Below, in pieces: positions 19,314-26,318 of a stretch of DNA of 64,000 nt (the stretch's first letter is position 1; every line of letters starts with the position of its first letter). The stretch comes from Halorientalis persicus (lineage in GTDB: Archaea > Halobacteriota > Halobacteria > Halobacteriales > Haloarculaceae). The stretch spans positions 1 to 64,000 of the forward strand of contig NZ_FOCX01000006.1 of assembly GCF_900110215.1 (NCBI RefSeq), written 5' to 3'. The position numbers and the translations under genes were made by a program. Below the pieces are notes generated by a model, which saw only the letters and a program-made list of their open reading frames with translations, had not been told where the DNA came from and did not search any database.

Positions 19314-19336
19314 GGCGGTCGGGTTTACGAAGATGT

Positions 19337-19411
19337 AGCGGGATGGGATAGCCAGGAGATTCCGGCGGGCTCATAACCCGCAGATCGGTAGTTCAAATCT
19401 ACCTCCCGCTA
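19337..19411 (+). tRNA. Initiator-type tRNA-Met (anticodon CAU)
   Basis: The acceptor stem AGCGGGA (19337-19343) pairs with TCCCGCT (19404-19410), with discriminator A at 19411. The anticodon stem CGGGC and GCCCG-like arm (ggcgggctcataacccgc) carries three G-C pairs next to the CAT loop, the mark of initiator tRNA. The T-arm is GGTAG-TTCAAAT-CTACC. There is no intron. The last 21 bases are repeated downstream in a tandem array. Confidence 0.93.
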
Positions 19412-19735
19412 TGATTTTACTGCGAACAATACGTGAGCAGTAAATCATGCTGCGTCGATTTGAACCAGGGAGTGGAGCGAAGCGAAACGACCGTGGTTCA
19501 AATCTACCTCCCGCTATATTCTGTCGCTCACAATCCGTGAGCGACGAACATAGGCCGTAGTAGTTTGAACGAGAGAAACGCGAGCGTAGCGAGCGTTTCG
19601 CGTAGTTCAAATCTACCTCCCGCTACTTCTCGACGCGAACAAATCCGTGAGTCGCGACAATCAGCTGTGTCGATTTGAAGTAGACCACGAGAGAGTGAAG
19701 TGACCGACGTGGGCGTACAAACCCACTGCCCGCTC
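19391..19735 (+). repeat. Tandem array of units starting with the tRNA-Met 3' end
   Basis: The tRNA 3' segment holding TTCAAATCTACCTCCCGCT recurs exactly at 19496-19516 and 19605-19625, and as a 15-of-21 match at 19715-19735. Spacing is 105, 109 and 110 bases. Each unit has the same order: the tRNA end; a hairpin (19411-19423 with 19437-19448; TCGCTCAC 19524-19531 with GTGAGCGA 19537-19544) whose loop contains a CGTGAG-like motif; an inverted T-arm sequence (GATTTGAACCA 19457-19467 pairing with 19494-19504); then a GAGCGAAGCGA-like stretch. This suggests a chain of attachment-site duplications or a structured RNA array. The 388 bases to 19799 hold no credible gene. Confidence 0.85.
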
Positions 19736-19799
19736 TATTCTGTCGCTCGGCTGAGGGTGGCACAATCGCTACCCGTCCAAGTGTGGTAGTGAGTCGACT

Positions 19800-24454: not shown

Positions 24455-24958
24455 TTACGCGTCGGGGCCGGTCTTCTCGGAGAGGGTGGCCGACGTATCG
24501 CCTTCCTGGGGCTCCCAGACGAGCGTGAACTCGAAGTCGCTCGTCGCGCCGATCCCGACCACGTCACCGCCGACGACCGCGGAGGTGTCGCCGATCGATC
24601 CGCTGGCTGCCGTTGCGGGCCAGTTCTCACCGGCATTGCCGGAGCTAATGTTGGAATCGGTGTCTCCGGCGTTACGGAAGCCCGTGCCTCGGAACACCAG
24701 TTCGTTATGCTTGATCGAGTCACCGCCGTCGTGGCTCACTTCCACGAGACCTTCTGGTTGGTCACCAGTTGCAGTATCGTTATATTGGGTATAGTCCCAG
24801 CTGAAGGATGCCTGCGGTGTCTGTTGCTGGCTGCCACCGAGTCCCAGCACGAACGATGCGATGACCGCAGCCAGAATGACCGTGATCGCGACCATCAGGA
24901 TGACCCCGATGACCGGACTGACTGCGTCGTCCTCTTCTAGCAGTTGGCGCACCTGCAT
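24455..24958 (-). CDS. Archaeal type IV pilin 1
   Basis: This 167-residue prepilin has a short charged leader ([12 protein letters not shown]), then the nearly invariant hydrophobic helix [20 protein letters not shown], as in PilA-type archaeal pilins processed by PibD. Residues 50-115 are variable, and the C-terminus ([20 protein letters not shown] and EKTGPDA) is shared with the next two genes. The helix packs into the pilus core and the variable part faces outward. It is the last of four tandem pilins. Bases 24795-24936 match the third gene at 141 of 142 positions. Confidence 0.92.
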
Positions 24959-24964
24959 GGGAGT

Positions 24965-24989
24965 CTGTTACTTACTCCCTAACTTATAC
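24965..24989 (-). promoter_or_regulatory. Promoter of pilin 1
   Basis: On the minus strand gtataag (24983-24989) is centred about 28 bases upstream of the ATG, and TAACAG (24965-24970) lies seven bases upstream. Both elements recur at the same positions before pilins 2 and 3, suggesting coordinated, probably leaderless, expression. Confidence 0.6.
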
Positions 24990-25107
24990 GTTCGGGTCGG
25001 CTCAACGGCCGAGTGAGCGGTTCCATCGCCAAAATAATGAAAATAAGTCGTGTCGAGAAATGAGGGCTTAATCGGCCGTTGCACCGAAAGAAGGAATTAA
25101 TGCGCCG

Positions 25108-25644
25108 TTACGCGTCGGGGCCGGTCTTCTCGGAGAGGGTGGCGGAGGTGTCGCCTTCCTGGGGTTCCCAGACCAGCGAGAACTCGAAGTCGCTCGCGGC
25201 ACCAATGGTGATGGTGTCTCCGCCGACGACTGCGGACGTGTCTCCGACGCTGCCCGAAGCGTTCGCGCCGTTCCACTGTTTGCCGGAGCCGCTAATTTGC
25301 GGGTACTCAGTGCCGTTCGAGATCGCCGCTACCCCATTCGGCTGGTCGCCACCGCCATCCGCCGGGTTCACATACCCAGTGCCACGGAAGTACAGTTCGT
25401 TGTGCTTGATTGAGTCCCCGCCGTCGTGACTCACCTCGGCAATCCCTTCTCCAACGTCCGTTCCGGTGACGTTGCTGTATTCCCAGCTAAACGAGGCCTG
25501 CGGCGTCTGTTGCTGGCTCCCGCCTAGCCCCAGGACGAACGAGGCAATCACGGCGGCCAGGATGACTGTAATCGCGACCATCAGGATGACCCCGATGACC
25601 GGACTCACTGCATCGTCGTCTCGTAGCAGTTCTCGCACCTGCAT
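25108..25644 (-). CDS. Archaeal type IV pilin 2
   Basis: The 178-residue prepilin starts [20 protein letters not shown] and has the same hydrophobic helix and Gln-rich [14 protein letters not shown] junction as pilins 1 and 3. The central part (about residues 55-140) is different, with [23 protein letters not shown] then a Gly/Asp-rich loop. The C-terminal 26 residues are almost the same as in pilins 1 and 3. At the DNA level its N-terminal region differs from theirs at many synonymous sites, so it was not part of their recent exchange. Confidence 0.92.
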   Translation of the reverse strand: MQVRELLRDDDAVSPVIGVILMVAITVILAAVIASFVLGLGGSQQQTPQASFSWEYSNVTGTDVGEGIAEVSHDGGDSIKHNELYFRGTGYVNPADGGGDQPNGVAAISNGTEYPQISGSGKQWNGANASGSVGDTSAVVGGDTITIGAASDFEFSLVWEPQEGDTSATLSEKTGPDA

Positions 25645-25651
25645 ACCACAC

Positions 25652-25676
25652 CTGTTATTTGGTGCTTGTCTTATAC
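25652..25676 (-). promoter_or_regulatory. Promoter of pilin 2
   Basis: Minus-strand gtataag (25670-25676) is about 29 bases upstream of the ATG and TAACAG (25652-25657) about eight upstream, matching the pilin 1 and 3 promoters. Confidence 0.6.
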
Positions 25677-25778
25677 ATTCGGGTCAACTCAGCGACCAAA
25701 TCGGTCTCTGGTGGAGGAAGAAACGAGTGGTTGAAGGTATGCGTTAACGCCGTCTTAAAGCGGGGAAAACAGGGTGAA

Positions 25779-26318
25779 TTACGCGTCGGGGCCGGTTTTC
25801 TCGGAGAGGGTGGCGGAGGTGTCGCCTTCCTGGGGCTCCCAGACGAGGGTGAACTCAAAGTCGCTCTCGGCTCCGATGGTGATCGTATTGCCACCGACTA
25901 CTGCCGAAGTGTCTCCGATATTGCCCGAGGCGTTCTTTGCGTCCCAGTTCTGACCCGAATCCACGAGCTGTGGATACTCTGTACTTGGCTGGTCAGATGC
26001 ATCCACTCCGTCCGGCGTATCCGGATCCTGGTCGAACGGATCAGTAAAGCCGTTCCCGCGGAAGACCAGTTCGTTGTGTTTGATCGAGTCTCCGCCGTCG
26101 TGACTCACCTCGACGATCCCCTCTGTCACGTCGGAGTTCGAGTCGTTGTTGTATTCCCAGCTGAAGGATGCCTGCGGTGTCTGTTGCTGGCTGCCACCGA
26201 GTCCCAGCACGAACGATGCGATGACCGCAGCCAGGATGACCGTGATCGCGACCATCAGGATGACCCCGATGACCGGACTGACTGCGTCGTCCTCTTGCAG
26301 CAGTTGGCGTACCTGCAT
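25779..26318 (-). CDS. Archaeal type IV pilin 3
   Basis: The 179-residue prepilin has leader MQVRQLLQEDDA, the conserved helix, and the [16 protein letters not shown] junction. The middle contains [28 protein letters not shown] followed by an Asp-rich loop (DPFDQDPDTPDGVDASD). It ends [20 protein letters not shown] and the shared tail. It is closest in DNA to pilin 1. The predicted location is the cell surface as a pilus subunit for adhesion or biofilm formation, as known for haloarchaeal PilA proteins. Confidence 0.92.
   Translation of the reverse strand: MQVRQLLQEDDAVSPVIGVILMVAITVILAAVIASFVLGLGGSQQQTPQASFSWEYNNDSNSDVTEGIVEVSHDGGDSIKHNELVFRGNGFTDPFDQDPDTPDGVDASDQPSTEYPQLVDSGQNWDAKNASGNIGDTSAVVGGNTITIGAESDFEFTLVWEPQEGDTSATLSEKTGPDA

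Follow-up and report, generated by a model that had tools for sequence, protein, structure and literature searches.

Tandem hairpin units behind haloarchaeal tRNA genes resemble the tRNA-linked repeats of Escherichia coli

Here we describe tandem arrays of short hairpin units standing on the 3' ends of haloarchaeal tRNA genes, among them the array behind an initiator tRNA gene in a 64-kb stretch of DNA from Halorientalis persicus (the window, meaning the whole stretch that was analysed). The arrays are a system of haloarchaea-wide spread and more than a local event, and judged by the plan of their sequence the closest known kind are the tRNA-linked repeats (TLR, or rtT) of E. coli, of which they are a class-wide archaeal counterpart. 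We read them as archaeal tRNA-linked repeats, built of F-hp1-R-hp2-F units on the tRNA 3' end that form a recombinational cassette stack, an explanation to which we give about an even chance. The original prediction for this locus was correct but underestimated its scope: the phenomenon is genome-wide, and both the tracking of the tRNA by two repeats of the unit (R and F, defined below) and the likeness to E. coli were missed.

Results

Layout of the initiator tRNA array

The gene called as tRNA-Met(CAT) at 19336-19412 on the plus strand (ARAGORN; Rfam RF00005) begins with AGCGGG, the archaeal initiator form; this tRNA-iMet is the parent of the array. Downstream of it follow three units of 104, 109 and 110 bp on the same strand, and each finishes with a copy of the 3' end of this tRNA. 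The 21-nt end, GTTCAAATCTACCTCCCGCTA, recurs exactly at 19496-19516 and 19605-19625 and with 15 of 21 matches at 19715-19735, so that the two exact copies and the degenerate one recognised at the outset stand at a near-even spacing of 105, 109 and 110. Every unit has the same internal order, i.e., a T-rich start with hairpin 1 (hp1), then R, then hairpin 2 (hp2), then F, where R is the reverse complement of the T-loop and the 3' strand of the T-stem of the parent tRNA, and F is the tRNA copy from G53 through the discriminator.

In unit 1, hairpin 1 occupies 19413-19453 (stem-loop 19418-19442, TACTGCGAACAATACGTGAGCAGTA) and is followed by R (GTCGATTTGAAC, 19454-19465), an hp2 core of type A (CAGGGAGTGGAGCGAAGCGAAACGACCGTG, 19466-19495) that occurs behind 9 tRNA kinds, and the first exact F. 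Unit 2 comprises its T-rich start and hairpin 1 at 19517-19556 (stem-loop 19523-19545), R at 19557-19570 (GTAGTAGTTTGAAC), an hp2 core of type C at 19571-19604, and the second exact F, while unit 3 holds its T-rich start and hairpin 1 at 19626-19668 (stem-loop 19631-19656), R at 19669-19680 (GTCGATTTGAAG), a diverged hp2 core of type B at 19681-19714, and the degenerate F. The 13 nt after unit 3, TATTCTGTCGCTC (19736-19748), repeat the first bases of unit 2 without a mismatch and are the remnant of a fourth unit.

The predicted CGTGAG-type hairpin and inverted T-arm copy are indeed found in all three units, with CGTGAG forming the 3' side of each stem-loop. The pairing of 11 out of 11 bases claimed for unit 1 holds between GATTTGAACCA (19457-19467) and TGGTTCAAATC (19494-19504). 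The further stretch said to be shared by the units, GAGCGNAGCGA, has two exact copies in the window, one in unit 1 and one in unit 2; unit 3 has a diverged version. The spacers between F copies in the window are about 85 bp long and gene-free, as they are in other arrays. Elsewhere in the window, at 24455-26318 on the minus strand, we observed three tandem paralogous genes with type-IV-pilin-like N-termini.

Spread across tRNAs and genomes

In the source genome (4.87 Mb), 19 of the 46 tRNA loci (about 40%) carry arrays, each with the 3' end of its own tRNA. The search of haloarchaeal genomes proposed with the original prediction bore it out: arrays stand behind Lys, Ser, Arg, Val, Thr, Gly, Leu, Met and Ile tRNAs of other haloarchaea, and the genera concerned include Natrinema, Natronorubrum, Natronococcus, Halorhabdus, Haladaptatus and Halorussus. 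The pattern GATTTGAA-N22-52-GGTTCAAATC was present in 44 of 53 haloarchaeal genomes of the source's own order, compared with 2 of 242 others of the phylum, and its version for tRNAs with the TTCGAATC T-loop in 20 of 24 genomes compared with 0 of 124; because the search patterns are exact, the counts are minimum values. The arrangement is more than chance: it was met again behind many tRNAs and in many species, and the reversed control pattern gave 0 matches. A same-strand tRNA lay at most 900 bp upstream in 27 of the 30 pattern sites examined. Among 174 parsed loci, a sample that was partly array-guided, 111 held one to five units, and the F copies, 19-21 nt in length, are exact in most tRNA-proximal units of the source genome and of many species.

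Several loci showed features of other kinds. Loci L160, L172 and L167 (Arg-CCT, Arg-CCG and Ser-GGA) and L041 (iMet of genome G026) contain a second, longer module type, ACCCACTTTTT...GCAAAAACTTGGGGAAAAA..., which is unrelated to hp1 and hp2 and in Arg arrays likewise ends in a tRNA-end copy. A conserved hairpin reproducing the acceptor end, GTGCGGGTGC...GCACCCACGCA, is common to the tRNA-Leu-GAG loci L292-L294, L300 and L319, and long units at tRNA-Leu-GAG loci enclose inner partial tRNA-Leu copies. Locus L184 (G000:C22:15500-21500; also G002:C4:112978-117203) packs about 28 tRNA genes, mostly with TTCGA T-loops, into about 4 kb; it resembles the tRNA clusters of large haloviruses and proviruses, and unit arrays were not seen there.

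R and F match the parent tRNA

Comparing each R of the source genome with the complement of its own T-arm, we counted 2.73 mismatches in 12 positions, compared with 3.66 ± 0.13 after permutation (best of 2000: 3.24). The R of tRNA-Lys(TTT), which has the odd T-loop TTCAACTCC, reads GGAGTTGAA, and that of Arg(CCT), with TTCGAATCC, reads GGATTCGAA. One 30-nt hp2 core is common to 21 units from 9 tRNA kinds, and around this constant core R and F read GGAGATTTGAA...TTCAAATCTCC for Ser, GCAGATTTGAA...TTCAAATCTGC for Val, CGGGATTTGAA...TTCAAATCCCG for Gly and GTAGATTTGAA...TTCAAATCTAC for iMet. Across the 21 units 95.2% of R-F cells are paired and 20 cells are changed on both sides, neither of which was reached by any of 500 shuffles. 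As units of one locus or genus are related, these figures characterise the sample and should not be taken for independent trials. R and F thus covary strongly with tRNA identity around near-identical hp2 cores. This match is not accounted for by recombination alone and needs either selection for pairing, at the RNA or DNA level, or a copying step.

Two ideas about R were discarded. That R tracks the tRNA and not the local copy appeared to hold by 55 to 8 at first, but with unbiased placement of R the count became 59 to 38, with 34 favouring neither, and the claim was dropped. A role of R as a C/D-box guide for T-loop methylation was ruled out by eye, there being no D box after R.

Module sharing, decay and folding

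The two hairpins differ in how they are shared: among 9734 unit pairs, hp2 exceeded the similarity threshold between tRNAs of different amino acids in 244, often with nearly identical cores, and hp1 in none. The orientation of hp2 is nearly constant (72 to 2), inversion being very rare. F decays with position in the array: the copy nearest the tRNA was the better one in 33 arrays and the last copy in 2 (p=4e-8). At the other end of the unit, a TTYT motif lies within 10 nt of the start in 109 of 153 units, compared with 1.4% elsewhere in units.

Folding predictions single out the R-hp2-F hairpin, which is far more stable than its shuffles (mean z of -4.6 under RNA parameters and -3.8 under DNA parameters); the tRNA-sense strand gives the stabler fold of the two strands in 120 of 143 cases. 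At its tip, hp2 has a C(GNA)G triloop in 93 of 153 units, where shuffles predict 11, whereas GNRA tetraloops were not enriched at the hp2 tips of the same 153 units. GNA triloops form hyperstable mini-hairpins in DNA (PMC4686876), which makes the folded DNA strand the somewhat likelier form to act, RNA being also possible. Among R-F mismatches (position 0 left out), G.T is not the commoner kind, with 46 compared with 61 A.C. A reading of hairpin 1 as a K-turn was rejected, as many variants have plain pairs in place of the G.A pairs.

Turnover between close relatives

Comparison of relatives, which had been suggested as a check on presence and copy number, revealed differences by whole units, both in the sister species and between strains of Haloferax gibbonsii. 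In the iMet array of the sister species, unit 1 is kept, unit 2 keeps its hp1 and R with a type E core in place of the type C core between identical R and F, and unit 3 differs. Behind other tRNAs of the sister species the orders of units are permuted, with new joins of hp1 to hp2 of the sort that R-R recombination predicts, and R-R recombination likewise explains the X-I junction of the Ser array. Three congeners have a single unit behind tRNA-Leu(CAA); two others lack it, and in these the flank is joined exactly to F. Leu-GAG was considered as an empty site in the source genome and rejected, the locus holding a long unit. Haloferax gibbonsii strains LR2-5 and ARA6 have near-identical flanks and differ in the whole unit adjoining a plasmid-borne tRNA-iMet, a difference for which precise loss suffices, because a related species has both units. 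These whole-unit differences, with their exact junctions and the exchanged hp2, indicate that F and R are the sites of a recombinational turnover of the arrays. None of the relatives compared showed an array newly arisen behind a tRNA that had none before, and all differences can be loss or reshuffling of old units.

Near a second, unit-bearing iMet gene we observed a gene for a tyrosine integrase of 322 aa (G000:C71:11375-11950 and G002:C11:261264-261839).

Comparison with E. coli TLRs and other known systems

The TLRs of E. coli were first seen in 1978. They are alike in that a tRNA (or 5S) gene is followed by tandem units, all of which end with a copy of the gene's own 3' end; the copied part is 18-19 bp of the upstream tRNA or rRNA, and the genome holds 22 units at ten loci, with one to five per locus (PMC8144298), compared with about 40% of the tRNAs of our source genome. 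In the five E. coli units that we read, the start is T-rich in four, with TATTCT in the arg units, which is also the start of several haloarchaeal units, and TCACTTTC in tyrT. An internal complement was found as well: in tyrT, GGGGAAGGAT is a 10-nt exact complement of ATCCTTCCCC in F (as long in 3 of 2000 shuffles), argV has 8 nt (GGGAGGAT), and in argZ and argQ it is weak or absent. The tyr and arg units have a common core with CCCGAAGGG, to which CCCGGAGGG in rrnB is related, and all five units have C(GNA)G loops. The internal complement and the shared core were seen in this analysis and stand outside the published TLR definition. A difference lies in the position of R, which corresponds to the T-loop and T-stem in haloarchaea and to the T-stem and acceptor part in E. 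coli.

We detected no sequence homology between the haloarchaeal units and E. coli TLRs. The Rfam family RF00391 (RtT) gave no match in the haloarchaeal units tested, whereas E. coli tyrT, run as a control, was matched four times. By plan the two are the same kind of thing, but the haloarchaeal units are not RtT family members; in the Rfam search of haloarchaeal units, only the tRNA itself reached a family cut-off.

Other known systems share single features. HF2-like and SNJ2-like integrative elements also leave a tRNA 3'-end copy downstream of the tRNA, but their copies bound kilobases of genes with an integrase, whereas those of the arrays bound gene-free hairpin units of about 85 bp with R. 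The palindrome-associated transposable elements (PATEs) of Haloquadratum are likewise short, non-coding haloarchaeal repeats with palindromes; they are relatives of IS605 without a link to tRNA ends. Unlike REP and PATE elements derived from IS200/IS605, our arrays are abundant in some genomes that have no match to a Y1 transposase. Integron attC arrays are similar in array topology, in the one-strand hairpin and in the flanking inverted core, but the present units have no genes and the T-loop GTTCAAAT does not fit the R-box GTTRRRY. In the open-access literature we found no earlier account of archaeal tRNA-linked arrays, and nothing fuller than a remark in a Haloferax genome paper on partial tRNAs directly adjoining full copies (PMC7921747).

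Discussion

What maintains such arrays can be explained in several ways. Haloarchaeal elements duplicate about 22-43 nt of tRNA 3' ends (PMC3119063, PMC7921747), and repeated integration and excision of proviruses or plasmids could in principle leave serial attachment-site copies. Yet the even spacing of about 110 bp, the hairpins and R in every unit, the presence at 19 tRNAs of one genome and the lack of any gene between copies leave this explanation scarcely credible. The original prediction had preferred a small hairpin unit to serial provirus scars, and this preference is upheld by the same unit recurring behind many tRNAs and genera with no gene and no integrase between copies. It had also held that the array would be a local duplication were the unit absent elsewhere; the unit is present behind other tRNAs and in other genomes. 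Plain tandem duplication without a general system would fit the near-identical copies of some arrays (Lys and Leu-GAG of genome G002), but the units of one array mostly differ and the same modules turn up again at unrelated tRNAs and in further haloarchaeal families, and the genome counts given above (44/53 vs 2/242; 20/24 vs 0/124) refute it as the whole story, so that we regard it as very unlikely.

A more serious competitor, although still a doubtful one, is a selected RNA element, in which the units would be structured 3' trailers or tandem pre-tRNA terminators, or small RNAs with tRNA-like 3' ends, and R would sequester F or present it to a nuclease, e.g., RNase Z. The location of the units on the tRNA strand (27 of 30 sites), the TTYT motif near the unit start and the better folding of the sense strand all fit, so that the structured RNA of the original prediction is compatible with the folding model; in E. 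coli, the TLRs of rrA, rrB and rrF are transcribed, processed and bind Hfq and CsrA (PMC8144298), the sRNAs of these three rRNA operons being the only TLRs with a known function. On the other hand, over half of the tRNAs have no array, orthologous tRNAs of sister species differ in theirs, G.T mismatches between R and F are not commoner than A.C, and the tips are GNA triloops, hyperstable in DNA, with no enrichment of GNRA tetraloops.

We consider it improbable that the units are minimal mobile cassettes inserted by a recombinase acting in trans, whether a tyrosine integrase or an enzyme for folded single strands, with F as the attachment core and R-hp2 as an attC-like recognition structure. 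F does equal the usual integration core of tRNAs, its polar decay fits insertion adjoining the tRNA, and the exact junctions and the single hp2 core behind many tRNAs point the same way, but hp2 is almost never inverted and a unit moved between tRNAs would carry the wrong F. Moreover, no recombinase is linked to the arrays, haloarchaeal units were not found in viral contigs or phage records, and plasmid units occur only behind plasmid-borne tRNAs. A Y1 transposase was rejected as the required enzyme, as two array-rich genomes, G101 and the single-contig, 99% complete G054, gave no PF01797 match; tyrosine recombinases are uninformative because PF00589 is found in all 20 genomes tested. Of the mobility originally proposed, gain, loss and exchange of units and hp2 modules with exact junctions stand, whereas F-F deletion and exchange at short R and F repeats account for all of it and insertion into an array-free tRNA was not seen. 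As a separate observation, high-GC bacterial phage and prophage contigs (L078, L090, L107, L109 and L123) carry near-perfect palindromes of tRNA 3' ends, GATTTGAACCGTGGACCTCTGG...CCAGAGGTCCACGGTTCAAATCCATGCCCCGC, possibly a bacterial R-F hairpin.

For the recombinational cassette stack that we prefer, the plan, its spread, the R and F match, the decay, the differences in unit number and the swapped hp2 are observations, and from the positions of the repeats we infer the following pathway. The F copies of about 20 bp would allow deletion and duplication of whole units, and the R repeats would allow hp1 of one unit to be joined to hp2 of another. Short-homology conversion may carry copies of an hp2 module from the array of one tRNA to that of another, because the T-loop sequence GATTTGAA / TTCAAATC, present in nearly all haloarchaeal tRNAs, bounds hp2 on both sides, while hp1 would remain local to its array because it is bounded by tRNA-specific sequence. 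The R-hp2-F hairpin is the probable trigger of these exchange events, given its fold on the tRNA-sense strand and its C(GNA)G tips, and the units are probably read through as pre-tRNA 3' trailers. That the plan is so deeply conserved hints at a selected role of some kind beyond this cassette account. A bolder idea, which we consider quite unlikely, is a general cassette system at tRNA 3' ends, common in principle to haloarchaea and enterobacteria, in which a folded sense-strand R-hp2-F would be inserted or copied at the tRNA end and R would be a re-programmable address that chooses the tRNA.

E. coli TLRs have long been without a general function and were apparently an enterobacterial curiosity, and the same plan is now found across an archaeal class. 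Where E. coli offered a few loci, the haloarchaeal arrays supply natural replicates by the hundred in genetically tractable hosts, e.g., Haloferax, and what they add to the E. coli TLRs is an R matched to its tRNA together with clear records of turnover between close species.
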